Source of the DNA: a bacterium
GTDB taxonomy: Bacteria > Patescibacteriota > Minisyncoccia > Phycocordibacterales > Phycocordibacteraceae
DNA length: 37,703 nucleotides
Direction of reading: 5' to 3'
Assembly (NCBI GenBank): GCA_021778295.1
Contig: JAJYCP010000004.1
Coordinates: 1 to 37,703 of the forward strand
The stretch's first letter is position 1; each line of letters begins with the position of its first letter. Below the pieces are notes generated by a model, which saw nothing but the letters and a program-made list of their open reading frames with translations, searched no databases and was not told the origin of the DNA. This document shows, piece after piece, positions 8,917-37,703 of this stretch. A program made the translations under genes and the position numbers.

Positions 8917-9780
8917 ATGCACCACCAGCAGACCGTCATCCTCTATCACGGCAAATGCCCCGACGGTTTCGGCGGTGCCTATGCGGCATGGAAGAAGTTC
9001 GGCGACGCGGCTGAATACATTCCTATGCAGTATGGCAAGCCGATTCCGGAGCACATGGCCGGCCGCGATATCTACTTCATTGATTTCTGCTATGACCGAG
9101 AACGCATGAATCAGCTCGTGTCCATTGCTAAATCAATTACCGTGCTTGACCATCACGAAGGTGTCCGGGAAGTCGCAACTGCCTTCCCGGGAGTCTTTGA
9201 CCCGAGTCGTTCCGGTGCGGCCATCGCGTGGGAATATTTTCATCCGAATGTCCCGGGGCCTTTTCTTTTTGAATACATTGAAGATTATGATCTCTATCGT
9301 TTTTCGCTCCCCGACACGAAAGCGCTGAATGCCTACCTCACGCTCGAACCGTACGAATTCGAGCGCTGGGATGAGATCGTTTCCTCTCTTGAGGATCCGG
9401 AGCGGCGAGCCAAGATTATTGAACGGGGGAGAATATACGCTGAACATACCGATGCCCTCATTCAGCACATCGCCGCAAGCGCGGATTTGGTTGAGTTCGA
9501 AGGCCACACCTGTTACCTCTCGGGTACCGTACTCCAGGCGTTCACTGACTATCTCGGACATGAGCTTGCAAGAAAACAGCCGCCCTTTGCGCTCATGGTG
9601 CGTCCGGCTGCGGATGGGTTGCGCGTTTCTCTGCGGAGCGTCGATGATTTCGACGTCGCAGTGCTTGCGCGCAAATACGGCGGTAACGGACACCCGGCTG
9701 CTGCGGCATTTCGCATACCGTGGGGCGATCCGATTCCCTGGAAGCCGGTCGAGAAAAAAGATGAAGATCCTCGCGATTGA
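8917..9780 (+). CDS. DHH/DHHA1-family phosphoesterase
   Basis: 287 residues. DHH proteins are Mn-dependent phosphoesterases that hydrolyse short oligonucleotides, cyclic dinucleotides or related phosphodiesters. The metal motifs are in order: HGKCPDGFGGA (Asp16), IDFCYD (Asp56), LDHH (78-80), and an Asp in the IEDYDLY region. The C-terminal DHHA1 domain ends with GGNGHPAAAAF, the family GGGHxxAAG-type substrate-binding motif. The length suits the NrnA-like or cytoplasmic 'exopolyphosphatase-like' group; no CBS, PAS or membrane domain is present. The previous stop codon is part of a TAAACT -10-like box only six bases before this ATG, so it may also have its own leaderless mRNA. Its 3' end overlaps tsaD by 20 bases. 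Confidence 0.8.
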   Translation: MHHQQTVILYHGKCPDGFGGAYAAWKKFGDAAEYIPMQYGKPIPEHMAGRDIYFIDFCYDRERMNQLVSIAKSITVLDHHEGVREVATAFPGVFDPSRSGAAIAWEYFHPNVPGPFLFEYIEDYDLYRFSLPDTKALNAYLTLEPYEFERWDEIVSSLEDPERRAKIIERGRIYAEHTDALIQHIAASADLVEFEGHTCYLSGTVLQAFTDYLGHELARKQPPFALMVRPAADGLRVSLRSVDDFDVAVLARKYGGNGHPAAAAFRIPWGDPIPWKPVEKKDEDPRD

Positions 9781-10963
9781 AACGAGCTGCGACGAGACGG
9801 CAATCGCCATACTAAAAGCCGAGGGCGATGAGAAGGCGGCGCAGTTCACCGTACTCGGGAACGCGCTCCTCTCGCAGATAGATATTCATCGGGAATACGG
9901 CGGCGTCTTCCCCGCTCTCGCCAAGCGCGAACACGCAAAGAATCTCGTGCCGATTCTCGAGGCGGCGCTTGAGGAAGCGGAACTCCTGCATGAAGATACG
10001 CAGGCGATACCGGAAGAAACGCGCGCCAAAATTTCAGAAATTTTGGCGCGCGAGAGCGGCCTCGCCGAAGCGTTTTTCGAATTCGTCGGCGAGTGCGAGC
10101 CGCCGCCCATTGACGCCATTGCGGTCACGTCGGGCCCCGGGCTTGAGCCGGCGCTCTGGGTCGGTATCAATTTCGCCAAAGCGCTTGCGCTTCTCTGGGA
10201 GAAACCGCTCGTCGCGGTCAATCATATGGAGGGGCATATTTTCACCGCACTTGCGGCAGAAAAGCGTCTGCAGGATGCGGAAGGCACTCCTCTGCATATC
10301 AAGGATGTTTCCATGCCGGTGCTTGCGCTCCTTATCTCAGGTGGACATACGGAACTTGTCGTCATGAAAAAGTGGCTCGAGTACGAACTCGTCGGGCAGA
10401 CGCGCGACGATGCGGTCGGCGAAGCGTTCGACAAAGTCGCTCGCATGCTCTCCCTCCCCTACCCGGGCGGGCCGGAGATATCGCGTCTTGCCGAATCTCT
10501 TCGTTCCTCACTTGGCGGTTTCACCGCCAAGTACTCGTTGCCACGACCGATGCTCAACGACGCGACGTGCGACTTTTCCTTTTCAGGATTGAAAACCGCC
10601 GTACTGTATCTCTTGAAGAAAAACCCCGCGATGAGCGAGCACGAGAAACAGCATCTCGCCCACGAATTCGAGAATGCGGTGACCGAAGTCCTCTGGGAAA
10701 AGACGTCGCGCGCGCTTGAAAAAACGCGGGCAAAAACACTCACTCTAGGCGGCGGCGTCTCGGCAAACAAACATATCCGCCGCACTTTTACGGAAAAAAT
10801 AAAAAACGAATATCCTGATGTGACGCTCCGCATCCCTTCCGCCGCACTCACCACCGACAACGCCATCATGATCGCGCTTGCCGGCTTCTATCGCACGCTC
10901 CGGGGCGACTTCCCCGGATTGGATGCCCTATCGGCAAACGGCAACCGTACGCTCGCCCCGTGA
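9761..10963 (+). CDS. tsaD: tRNA N6-threonylcarbamoyladenosine transferase subunit TsaD
   Basis: 400 residues from ATG 9761 (MKILAIETSCDET), overlapping the DHH gene by 20 bases. TsaD transfers the threonylcarbamoyl group to A37 of ANN-decoding tRNAs, working with TsaB and TsaE. The ASKHA ATPase core is intact: N-terminal AIETSCDET, metal-binding HMEGH (His155, His159), LLISGGHTEL, and C-terminal TLGGGVSANKHIR. The family is usually near 340 residues. The excess lies mainly in an acidic, helical insertion at about residues 74-115, and that DNA contains a perfect 15-bp-arm inverted repeat (10020-10052). A second short palindrome lies at 10510-10532. Both are in frame and do not disturb conserved motifs. 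Confidence 0.95.
   Translation: MKILAIETSCDETAIAILKAEGDEKAAQFTVLGNALLSQIDIHREYGGVFPALAKREHAKNLVPILEAALEEAELLHEDTQAIPEETRAKISEILARESGLAEAFFEFVGECEPPPIDAIAVTSGPGLEPALWVGINFAKALALLWEKPLVAVNHMEGHIFTALAAEKRLQDAEGTPLHIKDVSMPVLALLISGGHTELVVMKKWLEYELVGQTRDDAVGEAFDKVARMLSLPYPGGPEISRLAESLRSSLGGFTAKYSLPRPMLNDATCDFSFSGLKTAVLYLLKKNPAMSEHEKQHLAHEFENAVTEVLWEKTSRALEKTRAKTLTLGGGVSANKHIRRTFTEKIKNEYPDVTLRIPSAALTTDNAIMIALAGFYRTLRGDFPGLDALSANGNRTLAP
10020..10052. repeat. Perfect inverted repeat inside tsaD
   Basis: CGCGCGCCAAAATTT (10020-10034) and AAATTTTGGCGCGCG (10038-10052) are exact complements around a 3-nt CAG loop. It codes for part of the TsaD insertion (RAKISEILARE). Confidence 0.9.
10510..10532. repeat. 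Second perfect inverted repeat inside tsaD
   Basis: ACTTGGCGGT (10510-10519) and ACCGCCAAGT (10523-10532) pair fully around a TTC loop. It encodes the SLGGFTAKY segment. Confidence 0.85.
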
Positions 10964-25741: not shown

Positions 25742-28135
25742 CTATAGTATCTCGCACGTACCTCCGGCGCACGCGAGCTCTTTTTTCATTTCCGTCTCAT
25801 CCTGACGCTCATAGGCGATGAGTTTTGAGTAATCGATCTTTGGAAAGCGAGACATGCGTTCTTCGTATTCTTCTTTAGTAATGGTCTCGTACGGCGCGAG
25901 GCGATAGACATGATTGGAACGCGGGAGGAATGAAAGCCCGCCGATGATATTCCAATTCTTTTGGACCCAATCGACAACGCCGATCCATTCATCCTCGCCG
26001 ACCGAGATTGTCGCCGAGGGGTTGTGCTCGGTATAGTTCAATTTCACGAGCCGCCAGTACTCGAGCTGGTCAATCGCCGAAAGATCGTCCTTGAACCGCG
26101 CTTCCTTTGAGTGGTCAGGCGACTTGACCGGGAATTCAAGCACATACGTGTTTGCCTCCTCCATCGATTGTCCGACTTCCGGATAGTACGGCACTCCTTG
26201 ATCGCGCATCATCTTGAAAAGCGAATCGGTGGCGCTGATGCGCACGCGGCGGATGTAGTACGGGGCATGGCGCGGATGAATGCCCGATGCGCAGTTGAAA
26301 GTCTGTGAGACCGTGCCGGATGGTTTTACAGCGGTAACCGCCATTGACCGTTCGACGCCGAAGCGCTTTGCGTAGGTGACGTTCGTTTTCACCGCGACAT
26401 CGCGGATTTTTTGCATCGTTGCAGCATTGCGCACCACCGGACTATCCCACTGTCCGGTTATCGATACTCCGAGGAGCCGTTCGGCGCGATTGTGATCGGT
26501 CCATTCCTGTGAAATATATCCGAATTTCGTAAGCGTTGACTGATAGGTGCCGATGATCGAAGCGAGACGGGCCTTGCGCACGAGCGAAGCTTCCGTATCA
26601 TGCGCACGCGCGATTATCTCCGAGAGATTACAGAATTGTTTCGATTGCAGGATAATTTCCGCGCACGGATTCGTACCGACCGACCCGCGTACTACGCCGT
26701 CCTCTCCGAGAAAACCGACTTTCCTGAAGTAGTCGGTGCGTCGCTTCGGCAGCGTCTGCGCAAGCGAACCGCGGTTGAAGATGCCGCGCTCGCCGGAACC
26801 GCTTTTCATAAGCGCGACCCATTCGTCCATAAGTTCGGTATTGGTCGGCTGCGTTTCATACACCGCGGAATTGTTCGCTACAGAGCGGTGAGGATCGGTC
26901 ATGTAGAACTGGCCCTTCTTGGCATCGCGCATCTCTACGTCGTCAAGGTCGGAAAGCGAGATCATCGCGGTACGTCGTACGCCGCCCGCGACGACGCATT
27001 CGCCGATCTTGCAGATGATGTCGTGCGCATCGATGGCGCGCAGTCGCCGGCCCTGGCGCGCGAGCACGCGCTCGCGCGAGAATGCGAGTAAAGAGCGCAG
27101 CGGCTCCGGACCGCTTGCTTTTCCTCCCATGGTTTTCAGACGCGCGCCCGCCGGGCGGATTTGAGAAAAATCAAAAGCGATATCCTTGCCGGAATACCAG
27201 GTCGTGAGGCCGAGCGTGAGCGCATCGCACCATCCTTCTTTTGAATCGCTGATGAGATGCGTCGGCAGTTTCTTCTGTCCCTTCTGCTTCATGATTTGCG
27301 GAAGCTGTTCGATGTTCTGGCTTTCGACTGCAAACCCGACGCCGCATCCCTGCATTGAGAGGTACATGATCTCGGCAAAATCTTCGAGTTTTGTCGGTGC
27401 CGTGAAGGTGCAGTTATACGCACAGGTGTTGCAGCGGCGCGCGGCTTCGCCCGCAAACTGCATAAGGCGCATCGAAGGCATCACCTCTTGTTTAAGGATG
27501 CCCATGCGCACTTCTGAATATTCTTTTTCGGTGAGTTTCGTCCCGAGGTTCTCACGCATGAAATGTATGTAGCGGTCGACGGTTTCTATCCAGGTCTCCC
27601 GCCGACCCTCCTCGGGAATCCATTTCGCATAGGTACGCAGATAGACGAACTCGCCAAGCGCATTGCCCTCAAAATATTTCTTGCTCTCCGCAACCAGTTT
27701 CTGCACATGCTCCGGGATGTCGACTTTTGTCGCGCGCAACTGGGAACGCTTGTCGCGGTACAGGATATACGTCTTTGCCGTCTTCACGTAATCATTGAGT
27801 ATGAGATATTTCTCGACTGAGTCTTGTATGCCCTCGACCGTCGGAAGAAAACTCTTGTATTTCTTTGAAAATCGTCCGAGTTCTCCGGCAACTTGATGCG
27901 CAACAAGGTTCGCATCGTCCTGACTGCCTTCTTCCGCCGCTGACATCGCTTTCCAAATCGCTGCTGCGATCTTATCAAAATCAAACGGTACAAGCCGTCC
28001 GTCACGCTTCTCGATTTTGGGAATCATTTCGCGATAACGGATCGTTTCTTTCGATATTTTCTCTTGCTCTGTCACATCGGCATTACTCGATACACGCGTT
28101 TTTGTACGAACCTGAGCTTTTGCGACTTTTGACAT
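25742..28135 (-). CDS. nrdJ: Class II (adenosylcobalamin-dependent) ribonucleotide reductase
   Basis: 797 residues. It reduces ribonucleotides to deoxyribonucleotides using a thiyl radical generated from vitamin B12 coenzyme. The N-terminal 40-130 region is an ATP-cone (PKIEKRDGRLVPFDFDKIAAAIWKA) that senses ATP/dATP. The barrel contains RRCNTCAYNC, SMQGCGVGF and NPCAEI, with the radical cysteine at 491 followed by the catalytic Glu two residues later. The C-terminus ends CAGGTCEIL, a redox pair (Cys789, Cys794) that is re-reduced by a thioredoxin or glutaredoxin. The size and motifs fit the monomeric triphosphate-reductase branch. There is no NrdB partner. The upstream 117-bp region carries small hairpins but no recognisable cobalamin riboswitch. 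Confidence 0.93.
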   Translation of the reverse strand: MSKVAKAQVRTKTRVSSNADVTEQEKISKETIRYREMIPKIEKRDGRLVPFDFDKIAAAIWKAMSAAEEGSQDDANLVAHQVAGELGRFSKKYKSFLPTVEGIQDSVEKYLILNDYVKTAKTYILYRDKRSQLRATKVDIPEHVQKLVAESKKYFEGNALGEFVYLRTYAKWIPEEGRRETWIETVDRYIHFMRENLGTKLTEKEYSEVRMGILKQEVMPSMRLMQFAGEAARRCNTCAYNCTFTAPTKLEDFAEIMYLSMQGCGVGFAVESQNIEQLPQIMKQKGQKKLPTHLISDSKEGWCDALTLGLTTWYSGKDIAFDFSQIRPAGARLKTMGGKASGPEPLRSLLAFSRERVLARQGRRLRAIDAHDIICKIGECVVAGGVRRTAMISLSDLDDVEMRDAKKGQFYMTDPHRSVANNSAVYETQPTNTELMDEWVALMKSGSGERGIFNRGSLAQTLPKRRTDYFRKVGFLGEDGVVRGSVGTNPCAEIILQSKQFCNLSEIIARAHDTEASLVRKARLASIIGTYQSTLTKFGYISQEWTDHNRAERLLGVSITGQWDSPVVRNAATMQKIRDVAVKTNVTYAKRFGVERSMAVTAVKPSGTVSQTFNCASGIHPRHAPYYIRRVRISATDSLFKMMRDQGVPYYPEVGQSMEEANTYVLEFPVKSPDHSKEARFKDDLSAIDQLEYWRLVKLNYTEHNPSATISVGEDEWIGVVDWVQKNWNIIGGLSFLPRSNHVYRLAPYETITKEEYEERMSRFPKIDYSKLIAYERQDETEMKKELACAGGTCEIL

Positions 28136-32473: not shown

Positions 32474-32905
32474 ATGCTCGATCGCTCAAAACAGCTGCAA
32501 GAAATACTGGAGGGGTTTCATAAAATGAAACGGCACGCGGACATCAAGGGCTCCTGTACGCCCGGCGGCCTTGCCATCACTAATTCGCAATGGATGACCT
32601 TGAGCCTCATTTCGCGTATCGGAGCCGTATCGATCAAAGATATTCGCCTGGCATTCGGCATCACGAGCAGTGCGGCAACCCAGGTAGTGGGAGAACTTGT
32701 AAAAAAGCGCTACGCCATAAAAGCGACAAGCGATAGAGATAAACGCACGACCGTCATACGCCTCACGCCGAAAACGAAACAAGCCATGGCACGCGCGCGG
32801 CGCGCGGCGCACATGCATATGGTCCGCTTGTTCTCAGCGTTAACCGACAAAGAGTTTGTTGAGTACGCCAGGCTCAACAAAAAAATTATTAACAGCTTCC
32901 AATAA
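32474..32905 (+). CDS. MarR-family transcriptional regulator
   Basis: 143 residues. The winged-helix core is visible: LTNSQWMTLSLISRIGAVSIKDIRLAFGITSSAATQVVGELVKKRYAIKATSDRDKRTTVIRLTPKTKQAMARARR, where the second and third helices bind DNA and the RDKRTTVIRLT wing is typical. N- and C-terminal helices form the dimer. MarR proteins usually repress their own efflux operon until a small ligand binds. No cysteine suggestive of redox control is seen. It is the first gene of the operon, 13 bases before the membrane-fusion protein, and a palindrome overlaps its promoter. Ligand unknown. Confidence 0.9.
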   Translation: MLDRSKQLQEILEGFHKMKRHADIKGSCTPGGLAITNSQWMTLSLISRIGAVSIKDIRLAFGITSSAATQVVGELVKKRYAIKATSDRDKRTTVIRLTPKTKQAMARARRAAHMHMVRLFSALTDKEFVEYARLNKKIINSFQ

Positions 32906-32918
32906 TCAATGAGTCTGT

Positions 32919-34535
32919 ATGTCGGCATTTTCTAAATTTCGCGCATTTCTTTCACGCCTGCCGAAACGCGCCGTAATCGTGGCGGCGGCGGCGCTTGTCA
33001 TAGGCATTCTCGGCATACACTGGCTCACACGACCCTCCGCTTCTTCCAGTGCCCAAGACACGGGAACGGCACACGTCAGCGTCGCGACTGTTGCGAGCCT
33101 GTCTTCCGCGACAAGCTCATTACCGGTTACCGGCGTGGTAACTTCCGTAAGCCAAGCGACTGTCCTTGCACAAACATCCGGCGAGATCGTCAGTCTCCGT
33201 CATTCCCTTGGCGACCGGGTAGCGGCGGGTACGGTCATTGCAGAATTTTCAAACGGTGCGCAGCGGGCGAACGTACTGCAGGCGCAAGGAGCCTATGAAG
33301 CGGCTCAGGCGGAACTTGCAAGCGCGCTCAATGCCGGAGGAACGGGCTCATCCATTTCGCTCACGCAAGCACAGCAGGGTGTTCAAAATACAAAAAACGC
33401 GCTGCAGAACGCGCTGCAGAGCACCTATGCCGCGCTCGATGATGCCGTACATGCAAAGGCAGATCAGCTTTTCTCAAATCCGAATACTTCGTCAGTACAG
33501 ATCATTCTTACCGTTCCGGACAATCAATTGGTATCCCAGTTGCTGCAAGAACGTATCCAATTGCAATCCATATTCGGCACCCTTCTTCCCTACACGAAGG
33601 ATTCCGCTTCCGCCTCCTTGGACGCTCACAGTACGGATATGATCACGGCGGTTGGAACTATCACTCAATTTTTGAACAACCTCGCAACCGCGGTTAACGA
33701 AACACCGCCGAGCCAAAACGCAAGCTCCGCGACACTGACAGGCTACGCCGCATCGCTTAGTGCGGCTCACACCGAAGTAACCGTTGCTTTGTCGAGCCTC
33801 ATCGCGGCAAAAAGCGCATACGATACGGCTCTTTCCGCTTCGCAAACCGCGGTGAATGCCGCCACAAACGGGGCGCCGAACAGCATTGCGCTTGCCGAAG
33901 CGCAAGTAAAACAAGCGCTCGGTGCGTACAACGCCGCGCGCTCCAACCTGGAAAATACGATCATCCGCAGTCCTGTAGACGGCGTGATCGTCAGCCTTCC
34001 TATCACACAAGGCGATTACGTATCTGCTTTTTCTCCTGTTGCTATCGTCTCAAATCCGCATGTGCTTTACGTCGACACATCAGTGACTTCTTCGGACGCC
34101 CGAACGCTCGCCGTAGGAAATCAGGCGCTTATAAACGGGAGCACGAGCGGCGATATAACATTCATCGCTCCCGCACTGAATCCGCTCACGGGTAAAATAG
34201 AGGTCAAGATAGGCATACCCGGGTCGACGACCTCTCTTGTTGACGGCGAAACCGTTTCGGTTGTGCTCGATCGAACGCTGCCTGCTCCAAACACTCCCGG
34301 GGTGCGCATTCCGCTTGCGCTGTCTATTCCGATTGCAGCCGTGAAAATGACCCCGAGCGGAGCGATCGTTTTTACCGTGAGCACGTCGAGTGCGGTCGTT
34401 GCTCATGCGGTTACGCTTGGAGCTATTACCGGCGATACGGTTGCCATTCTTTCCGGCGTCACGCCCGATCAGTACATCGTGACTGACGCGCGCGGACTTG
34501 CAAATGGACAAACAGTCATAGTGAACACTCCATAA
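32919..34535 (+). CDS. RND-type membrane-fusion protein (HlyD/AcrA family)
   Basis: 538 residues, longer than the usual 370-420. One membrane helix (about 17-36) holds it in the membrane. The lipoyl halves lie near residues 75-110 (VTGVVTSVSQATVLAQTSGEIVSLRHSLGDRVAAG) and 345-375 (TIIRSPVDGVIVSLPITQGDYVSAFSP). Between them lies an unusually long Ala/Ser/Gln-rich helical hairpin, about 230 residues. Beta-barrel and membrane-proximal domains follow to the end. The adaptor should work with the RND permease encoded three bases downstream. No outer-membrane channel gene is present, which fits a single-membrane organism. The long hairpin might reach through a thick wall or S-layer. Confidence 0.87.
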   Translation: MSAFSKFRAFLSRLPKRAVIVAAAALVIGILGIHWLTRPSASSSAQDTGTAHVSVATVASLSSATSSLPVTGVVTSVSQATVLAQTSGEIVSLRHSLGDRVAAGTVIAEFSNGAQRANVLQAQGAYEAAQAELASALNAGGTGSSISLTQAQQGVQNTKNALQNALQSTYAALDDAVHAKADQLFSNPNTSSVQIILTVPDNQLVSQLLQERIQLQSIFGTLLPYTKDSASASLDAHSTDMITAVGTITQFLNNLATAVNETPPSQNASSATLTGYAASLSAAHTEVTVALSSLIAAKSAYDTALSASQTAVNAATNGAPNSIALAEAQVKQALGAYNAARSNLENTIIRSPVDGVIVSLPITQGDYVSAFSPVAIVSNPHVLYVDTSVTSSDARTLAVGNQALINGSTSGDITFIAPALNPLTGKIEVKIGIPGSTTSLVDGETVSVVLDRTLPAPNTPGVRIPLALSIPIAAVKMTPSGAIVFTVSTSSAVVAHAVTLGAITGDTVAILSGVTPDQYIVTDARGLANGQTVIVNTP

Positions 34536-34538
34536 CAT

Positions 34539-37500
34539 ATGCTGTGGCTGTGGAATTTTTTTCTTGAGAAGCGGCAGTTTAGTTACGTACTTATTGCGAC
34601 CTTGGTAGTCGCCGGTTCTTTTTCGCTCTTACAAATCCCAAAAGAGGTTGAGCCGCCTATCAATATCCCGGAAGGGGTCGTCGTAACGACGCTTCCGGGC
34701 GCGTCTGCTGCAGATATTGAAACGTTGATCACCAACAAGCTGGAAGACCAGATATCCGGCATCAGCAATATAGATACGATGACGTCGGTCTCCAGTAACG
34801 GCGTTTCGCAGATCACTGTGCAATTTCTGGCGAACGCAGACATCACTCAGTCCATTCAAGATCTTCGCGATGCGGTAGCGAAAGTCGTCCCGAACCTGCC
34901 CGCTGACGCTTCAACTCCTTCGGTAACCAAGATCAGTTTCTCCAACACACCAATTCTTATCGCCTCCGTGTCTTCTGACGTGCCGCCGCTCACGCTTTCT
35001 ACAGTCGGACAAACGGTGTCGGATGCCTTGAAACGCATTTCCGGTGTCTCCGACGTAAGCGTCACCGGCGTTCCCGACAGACAGGTTGATGTCGTCGTTG
35101 ATAAGAAAGCGCTTCTGTTATACGGATTGCAGATCTCGGATGTCATTTCCGCCATACAAACAAGCAATGCGACGCTGCCCATCGGGTCTATTTCCATGGA
35201 CGGCATTTCCTATAACGTAAATTTTAAAGGGAGCATCACCAATCCCGACACCATTCAAAACATAGTGGTCGCAAACAAAAACGGCACGCTCATTTATCTT
35301 CGCGATGTTGCAACGGTTTTTAACGGCCTCGCACCGGCAACGACTTATTCCCGCCTATCCATTCTCGGCGCGCCAAGCCAGAACGCGATCACTTTTTCTG
35401 TATACAAGCAATCGGGCGCATCTACCCAGGGGGTGGCGGACGCAGTACGGCAGGCACTCATCTCAATGGAAAAAACAACGCTGACGGGTTTTAACGTCTA
35501 CATCTCGCCTTCCACGGACATGGGGGTGCAGGTCGGCAAACAGTTGGGAGAGCTCGCCAAGACCGGCGTTGAGACGGTTGCGCTGGTCATTCTCGTCCTC
35601 TTGATCACCATCGGTTGGCGCGAAGCGATCGTCGCCGCGGTCTCTATTCCGCTTTCGTTCCTCATTGCCTTTATAGGCCTGTACTTCACGGGTAATTCAT
35701 TGAATTTCATTACGTTGTTCGCTCTCATTTTGGCGGTGGGCATTTTGGTAGACTCGGGCATCGTCGTGACCGAAGCCATTCATGCGCGCATGCGCGGGAA
35801 CGGCGACGCACTTGCCGCCGCACAGAAAGCGCTTGCAGATTATGCGTGGCCGCTCATCGCGGGTACGATGGCGACCGTCGCGGTGTTTTTGCCGCTCTTT
35901 TTCATCACCGGCATTATCGGCAAATTCATCGCCGGCATTCCGTATACGCTTATATTCGTGCTCCTGGCGTCGATTTTCGTTTCGCTCGGGTTGGTACCGC
36001 TCATCGCCATTCTTTTCAGCACGAAACGGAAAAATAAATTGACGATGCTGCAGGAAGCATACACCGACCGATTTACTGCATGGTACAAACGACTGTTGCG
36101 CACCATACTGGAGCATCGCCATACGCAAAAAATCTTCCTGCTGTCCTTGGGAGGACTCTTTCTGCTCTCCATTTCCCTTCCGCTATTTGGCTTGATACAG
36201 ACGGTCTTCTTGCCGCAAAGCAATCAGGATTATGTTTTTATCAATGTGACCGAACCCCAGGGAACCACGCTTGCGGTTACCGACAATGCCGTACGCCAGG
36301 TCGAGACGGTGCTGCGGCACGATCCTGACATCTACTCTTTCCAAACAACCGTGGGCCAGAGTTCGGCATTCACCGATATGCTGAGCGGGGGCGCAAACGG
36401 AAGTAACGTCGCGAACATCACCGTCAATTTGCCGCTTGGCCACGCAAAGACGAGCACCCAGGTGGTGAATGATCTGCAAAAAAGACTCACGCCTATCACC
36501 GATGCCACGATTCAAGTGCTGCAGGCAAGCGGCGGACCGCCGAGCAGCGCTCCCATACAAATCCAATTTGAAGGAAATAACCTCAATGATCTCATCACTG
36601 CCGCCGATAAGGGCGAACAATTGCTCGCAACCATTCCCCACGTGACGAATCTCACCAGTAGCACGCAAAACAACGGGACCGAATTTGACCTCACTATCGA
36701 CCGCTCGAAAGCGGCGGCACTCGGCGTGAATACGCTTCAGGTCGCGCAGACGCTCCACAGCGCTCTGCAGGGCACCAAAGCGATCAGCATCACTCAGCCG
36801 AACAAAAATATCGATGTTGTCGTCATGATGAATCTCAATTCGGCTTATACGAAGCCGTCCAACACCAATCAAACGACCATTGAGAGCATCAAAAATCTCA
36901 CCATTGAGGGTTCTAACGGACCCGTGTTGCTTGGATCCATTCTCACCGACTCGCTCGCGCAAAGCAACGCGAGTATCGCGCATAAAGATAAAGTGCGCGT
37001 GGAGACTGTCTCCGCATATCCTGATAGCCATACGACGGCATCGGCGGTGGTGAGCGCTTTCCAGAACCGCCTGAGTTCCCTCTCCCTGCCGCCCGGCGTC
37101 TCGGTCTCCTACGGAGGCGACACACAGAACATCAACCAATCATTTTCGCAAATGTTCGTGGCGCTCATCGCCGGTCTTGTGCTCATGTTTATGATCCTTA
37201 TCGTCGCGTTCAATTCGTTCCGCTATACGTTCTATCTCATCATGATCGTACCGCTTTCACTCATCGGCGTACTCGATGGATTGGCGCTTGTGGGACAGCC
37301 TATTTCTTTCTCTTCGCTTCTCGGTGTCATCGCACTCGGCGGCGTCATCATCAACCATGCGATTATTTTGATGGATTCAATGATCCATCGTTTGCGTGCG
37401 GCGCCCGACCTCCCGCTCATTGATGTCGTCATCGACTCGGCGGCAACCCGCTTGCGCCCTATCGTGCTCACGACCATTACCACCGTCATCGGCATGATCC

Positions 37501-37643
37501 CGCTGTCGCTGAGCAATCCGACGTGGGGACCGCTTGCTTTCAGTATTATGTTCGGACTTTCCTTTGCTATCGTCCTCACCCTCATACTCGTGCCGGTCTT
37601 GTTCTACCGTGCTCCCCACAAGACGCAGGCAACGTCTGCGTAA
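34539..37643 (+). CDS. RND-family efflux permease (AcrB/HAE-like)
   Basis: 1034 residues with the two-fold RND layout: TM1 at residues 12-30, a large pore/docking loop (about 35-330), TM2-6, an internal amphipathic helix, TM7, a second large loop (about 560-860) and TM8-12. It uses proton influx to export substrates through an adaptor. In TM4 the usual Asp-Asp pair is GILVDSGIVV, so Asp405 is kept and the second position is Ser406. In TM10 the AcrB lysine position is Asn939 in GGVIINHAIILMD, as in several non-AcrB families. Proton coupling is likely but altered. Start ATG 34539 is three bases after the adaptor stop. Substrate is unknown; the MarR context suggests toxic small molecules. Confidence 0.92.
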   Translation: MLWLWNFFLEKRQFSYVLIATLVVAGSFSLLQIPKEVEPPINIPEGVVVTTLPGASAADIETLITNKLEDQISGISNIDTMTSVSSNGVSQITVQFLANADITQSIQDLRDAVAKVVPNLPADASTPSVTKISFSNTPILIASVSSDVPPLTLSTVGQTVSDALKRISGVSDVSVTGVPDRQVDVVVDKKALLLYGLQISDVISAIQTSNATLPIGSISMDGISYNVNFKGSITNPDTIQNIVVANKNGTLIYLRDVATVFNGLAPATTYSRLSILGAPSQNAITFSVYKQSGASTQGVADAVRQALISMEKTTLTGFNVYISPSTDMGVQVGKQLGELAKTGVETVALVILVLLITIGWREAIVAAVSIPLSFLIAFIGLYFTGNSLNFITLFALILAVGILVDSGIVVTEAIHARMRGNGDALAAAQKALADYAWPLIAGTMATVAVFLPLFFITGIIGKFIAGIPYTLIFVLLASIFVSLGLVPLIAILFSTKRKNKLTMLQEAYTDRFTAWYKRLLRTILEHRHTQKIFLLSLGGLFLLSISLPLFGLIQTVFLPQSNQDYVFINVTEPQGTTLAVTDNAVRQVETVLRHDPDIYSFQTTVGQSSAFTDMLSGGANGSNVANITVNLPLGHAKTSTQVVNDLQKRLTPITDATIQVLQASGGPPSSAPIQIQFEGNNLNDLITAADKGEQLLATIPHVTNLTSSTQNNGTEFDLTIDRSKAAALGVNTLQVAQTLHSALQGTKAISITQPNKNIDVVVMMNLNSAYTKPSNTNQTTIESIKNLTIEGSNGPVLLGSILTDSLAQSNASIAHKDKVRVETVSAYPDSHTTASAVVSAFQNRLSSLSLPPGVSVSYGGDTQNINQSFSQMFVALIAGLVLMFMILIVAFNSFRYTFYLIMIVPLSLIGVLDGLALVGQPISFSSLLGVIALGGVIINHAIILMDSMIHRLRAAPDLPLIDVVIDSAATRLRPIVLTTITTVIGMIPLSLSNPTWGPLAFSIMFGLSFAIVLTLILVPVLFYRAPHKTQATSA

Positions 37644-37703
37644 ATTGCATTCTTAAAATCCGCGCGGGACTCTCCTTGGAGATTATTTAATCTTCTGCAG
37701 TGT

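Follow-up and report, generated by a model that had tools for sequence, protein, structure and literature searches.

A patescibacterial RND permease with a single TM4 aspartate and a clade-specific TM10 histidine at the putative proton site

We identified, at the end of the window (the whole stretch of 37,703 nucleotides that was analysed), an RND permease that carries the residues DS/NH at the positions corresponding to AcrB 407-408/940-941. With a probability of roughly 0.5, we interpret it as the pump of a proton-driven MarR-adaptor-RND exporter in which D405 would be the sole proton carrier of TM4 and H940 its probable titratable partner. Judged by sequence, the DS/NH relay is a new form of a known type of relay; no pump examined outside its clade carries the histidine. 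The same comparison indicates that a lone TM4 aspartate without a TM10 lysine is common and not peculiar to this pump. The pump is encoded with two other genes in a presumed operon:

32474..32905, + strand: MarR-family regulator, 143 amino acids (MarR/MarR_2), first gene of the presumed operon
32919..34535, + strand: adaptor of the membrane-fusion/HlyD-RND_mfp family, 538 amino acids (HlyD_3, HlyD_D23 and TIGR01730 above cut-off)
34539..37643, + strand: RND (AcrB-type) permease, 1034 amino acids (open reading frame, ACR_tran match of 613.8 bits, AcrD/AcrB fold match)

The permease is the final gene in the window and the sole full-length ACR_tran permease that a family search found in the assembly. 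Its match to the Pfam family (PF00873, cut-off 28 bits) spans residues 5-1023 and profile positions 2-1018 of 1021, and 12 transmembrane helices are predicted. It shares the full-length ACR_tran architecture and the fold of AcrB, MdtB and MdtC (HAE-1, E. coli) at about 23-25% identity, and scores below the cut-off of every NCBIfam HAE subfamily (best NF033617, 524.8 versus 1250; TIGR00915, 341.9 bits versus 940). Considered as a gene, it is by its predicted protein an ordinary RND pump. The adaptor stops three bases ahead of the permease start and scores 115.9 with TIGR01730 (cut-off 94.9), as an adaptor of a tripartite pump does. It lies directly 5' of the permease in all relatives with available upstream DNA, and a MarR homologue adjoins it in L004, L009, L010, L011 and L026. 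This regulator suggests substrates that are small and amphiphilic or toxic. On a plasmid of the Gram-positive Brevibacillus laterosporus (L093, 274-3402 and its neighbours), MarR, adaptor and RND genes likewise lie next to one another.

The window is the entire contig C7 and terminates 60 bases past the permease stop. Its final 262 bases (37442-37703) align at 96.6%, in the opposite orientation, with the end of the 9957-base contig C4; the assembly probably broke here because of strain variation, and the gene after the pump may therefore lie on C4. Elsewhere, the window encodes a 797-amino-acid ribonucleotide reductase homologue (25742-28135) with an ATP cone, a B12-RNR insertion domain and a weak, partial match to the barrel domain. 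A further frame, of 544 amino acids (9329-10963), overlaps a DHHA1-like one (8917-9780); its TsaD match starts only from residue 256, and its true start may be further in.

Alignment with AcrB of E. coli MG1655 gave the following equivalences at the proton site:

35751..35756, + strand: TM4 D405-S406 (codons 35751-35753 and 35754-35756), equivalent to AcrB D407-D408 (AcrB alignment and 21-sequence alignment)
35772..35774, + strand: TM4 E412, equivalent to AcrB E414, retained (alignment)
37353..37358, + strand: TM10 N939-H940 (codons 37353-37355 and 37356-37358), equivalent to AcrB K940-N941, H940 being a clade-specific change (alignment)
37374..37376, + strand: TM10 D946, equivalent to AcrB E947, retained (alignment)
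37449..37451, + strand: TM11 R971, equivalent to AcrB R971, retained (alignment)
37470..37472, + strand: TM11 T978, equivalent to AcrB T978, retained (alignment)

The first-pass annotation had reported Asp-Ser in place of the TM4 Asp-Asp pair and an asparagine in place of the TM10 lysine; the alignment bears out both, and adds a third change missing from that list, AcrB N941 to H940. Relative to AcrB, MdtB and MdtC, the pump therefore differs by D408 to S406, K940 to N939 and N941 to H940, whereas the equivalents of D407, E414, R971 and T978 are kept. The HAE-1 triad of a TM4 Asp-Asp pair and a TM10 lysine is absent, and the TM11 pair R971 and T978 is present and invariant in the clade. Coupling sites other than this triad are known in TM4 and TM10 of MmpL3 and SecDF (PMC6463170, PMC8277102), the former with Asp-Tyr dyads and the latter with a TM4 Asp and a TM10 Tyr. 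The window pump has no such tyrosine, and the Asp-Tyr dyads of the MmpL (HAE-2) type are missing from its TM4 (VDSGIVV) and TM10 (IINHAII).

The DS/NH residues are not an error or a chance occurrence, since a permease that is 97% identical and has the same motifs occurs in a separate MAG (L004) and the residues are invariant in relatives. Other close relatives (62-81% identity), which include Kaiser-, Adler- and Nomurabacteria and other Patescibacteria/Paceibacterota records, share the motifs (TM4 VDSGIVVTEAIH, TM10 NHAIILMDS) wherever the site is covered. In a 21-sequence alignment with a mean column identity of 77%, D405, S406, E412, N939, H940, D946, R971 and T978 are all invariant. An AlphaFold2 model built from these 21 sequences is weak (mean pLDDT 64.9, pTM 0.52) and was used only for helix limits and fold family. 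In it, TM4 spans 390-419 and TM10 spans 924-954, which would put D405 and N939/H940 mid-helix. A Foldseek search of PDB structures with this low-confidence model returned AcrD, BpeF and AcrB on top (E 1e-47, TM about 0.68).

We tabulated D, E, K, R, H and Y across all predicted transmembrane helices against AcrB, the sister pumps and the remaining permeases. No conserved compensating acid was found in TM4 or TM10, and no second acid that would restore the standard relay was seen there, in agreement with the initial reading of the site; E412 and D946 are the equivalents of AcrB E414 and E947 and not new acids. D913 in TM9 was considered and rejected as a compensating acid, being present in 17 of 25 clade members and absent from the DS/NN sisters. 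H415 is clade-invariant, yet many other permeases have His at the same position, and it was rejected as a distinctive residue.

To place these residues in the family, we compared 112 permeases with both sites aligned, taken from the phylum, the class, extra regions and plasmid records of other phyla; this sample is weighted to Patescibacteria and the window's clade, and its counts are not natural frequencies. The states were DD/KN (26), DS/NH (25), DP/NV (11), DS/NN (9), DN/ND (9), DN/NN (6), DD/RN (5), and DD/NN, DS/ND and DD/TN (3 each), with ten rarer ones. D407 is invariant in the 101-sequence set where it was counted, and in 73 of the 112 permeases D408 and K/R940 are both missing. One TM4 Asp with no TM10 Lys beside it is the state of most pumps of this phylum, of two Bacillota, of an alphaproteobacterium and of metal pumps (CusA, CzcA). 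Examples are Acetoanaerobium (Clostridia, L092, DN/NN), Brevibacillus (Bacilli, L093, DF/NN), Phaeobacter (L129, DG/NT) and CzcA (L126, DG/LN), and the solved ZneA has the same pattern (VDG in TM4, VLN in TM10). ZneA and CzcA, like the window pump, have no TM10 charge at the Lys position. Among other solved pumps, MexK and 6vej, which we take to be TriC, have DD with Arg in TM10. The different coupling arrangement suggested in the first-pass annotation gains partial support, in that the triad is absent and no conserved acid in TM4 or TM10 compensates for it, but this does not set the pump apart, as 73 of 112 have neither residue. In the DP/NV group of Patescibacteria (L055, L056, L100, L102, L103, L105 and L112-L116), Pro replaces D408, TM4 has one Asp, and neither TM10 position is titratable. 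A literature search for RND pumps of Patescibacteria or Parcubacteria gave no relevant paper.

Of the 112 permeases, 31 have D408 as well as K/R940 and 73 have neither; seven have D408 only, and one, of Salinivibrio (L135, DN/KN), has kept the lysine with D408 gone. Independent contrasts, drawn on a tree from which the TM4 and TM10 columns had been left out, gave a mean of 4.8 concordant pairs (mostly 4-6) and none opposed. The sign test for this linkage is not significant (median p 0.0625, and at least 0.0625 at each sample size of 84, 101 and 112 sequences), and the joint loss of the two residues is suggestive. Such a joint loss would keep the formal charge of the site at -1, in which case the site would have been rebuilt and not broken.

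H940 is invariant in all 25 non-redundant clade members, down to 48-51% identity, and only this one clade has His at the N941 position, with a single origin on the tree. Of the titratable residues in the TM4/TM10 core, H940 alone is fixed throughout the clade and missing from the sister pumps. The nearest outgroups on the tree are the DS/NN pumps of Patescibacteria (L068-L070, L040 and L041; 34-44% identity), which share the TM4 D-S and N939 of the window pump and differ from it in having Asn at 940. The Brevibacillus and Acetoanaerobium pumps (26-28% identity), which we take to be of the SwrC kind, likewise have one TM4 Asp and the TM10 Asn, and again have Asn where the window's clade has His. 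Within the class sample, the histidine is carried by the window pump and six others (L064-L067, L071 and L063), all from the window's order or closer; a DNA motif pattern, strict enough that it may miss members, matched 4 of 380 phylum genomes, all of the same order. No permease relative was found in viral contigs by a search with the alignment, and the one viral contig that matched the TM10 His pattern was rejected as it holds an 82-amino-acid reading frame and not an RND permease.

Other Patescibacteria often have Asp at the N941 position (ND). About seven changes to or from Asp occur there on the tree, a sign that the position probably matters to the proton site. In the extrusion state of AcrB, K940 turns toward T978/N941 (PMC11058585), which also puts residue 941 at the site.

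In AcrB, the transmembrane repeats engage and disengage with protonation, and every residue of the triad is needed (PMC8277102). In the exporter proposed here, D405 would be the only proton carrier of TM4, moving about one proton per cycle; N939 would be neutral, and R971 and T978 would act as in AcrB. H940 occupies the position of AcrB N941, which the moving K940 touches in the extrusion state, and could pair with D405 (His+/Asp-), assuming part of the role of the lysine, or alternatively serve as a proton relay linking D405 with the side of R971/T978. AcrB simulations favour D408 as the proton carrier (PMC11058585), the residue lost here, and the carrier role given to the D407 equivalent is therefore an assumption taken from CusA. 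The number of protons per cycle in AcrB and the Asp that carries them are themselves still argued (PMC11058585). The boldest form of the proposal, in which the D405/H940 pair replaces the triad, with one proton per cycle, an operating pH set by the histidine and export across a single membrane, is tentative, and we would rather doubt it than rely on it. The DS/NN sisters with Asn for His are a counterpoint, being presumably functional, which implies that a D-S/N pump does not require the histidine. No coupling measurements on these sequences were found in the literature searched.

The most serious competitor to the D405/H940 partnership is a plain single-Asp RND pump, in which D405 is the only proton carrier and H940, fixed by descent, forms hydrogen bonds much as Asn would and takes no part in proton transfer. 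We consider this somewhat less probable, but a real contender. It would suit the sisters without His and the D-x/N pumps of Bacillota, other Patescibacteria and an alphaproteobacterium, and a histidine gained once makes invariance in one clade weaker evidence than repeated gain would be. Against it stand the conservation of H940 without exception, even at 48-51% identity, and the seven or so Asp changes at the N941 position, which suggest that titratability matters there.

A proton gradient is a plausible energy source for the pump. The genome is reduced (495 kb, 87% complete). Its ATP-synthase c subunit (...GIGIGLIGGG...VFTEALGIL...) lacks the Gln and Ser/Thr that are the signature of Na+-type c rings. 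A Na+-driven pump, with S406, N939 and D405 as the cation site, is improbable. Loss of the TM10 Lys does leave a neutral, polar Ser/Asn cage around one Asp, but the c subunit has no Na+-type ligands, our searches returned no Na+-coupled close relative, and His would be an unusual residue to find invariant at a Na+ site. Neither a TolC-type OEP (PF02321), the outer-membrane part of a tripartite system, nor Omp85 had a match in the 87%-complete genome, where an assembly gap could hide either gene; both searches were positive in Gram-negative control genomes. The host cell probably has one membrane, as the first reading had presumed.

Export of heavy metals by a pump of the CusA/CzcA (HME) type is more improbable still. 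CusA works with one TM4 Asp, the essential D405, plus E939 and K984 (PMC8092243), and single TM4 Asp residues are also seen in Cupriavidus CzcA (DG/LN) and ZneA (VDG/VLN), as in CusA itself (VDAAI). However, the window pump keeps only the Asp of the CusA relay: TM10 E939 and TM11 K984 are absent, with N939 and I975 at these positions. It scores 316.6 with TIGR00914 (CusA/CzcA), against a cut-off of 701.45, and branches within the Patescibacterial ACR_tran permeases, in a different clade from CusA. Least credible of all is a degenerate or uncoupled permease whose triad was lost by gene decay: the genome is reduced and any triad substitution in AcrB abolishes efflux (PMC8277102), but the reading frame is intact and full-length, the operon with the adaptor is conserved, the site residues are invariant across 25 sequences, and the tendency of D408 and K940 to disappear jointly is unlike random decay.

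For the family as a whole, the Asp-Asp-Lys triad fails as a description, as most permeases in this Patescibacteria-weighted sample lack it, and its absence matters where relay residues serve to annotate function. Natural pumps with the D407 equivalent only and no lysine, among them those of this clade with their added histidine, would test the one-proton model.
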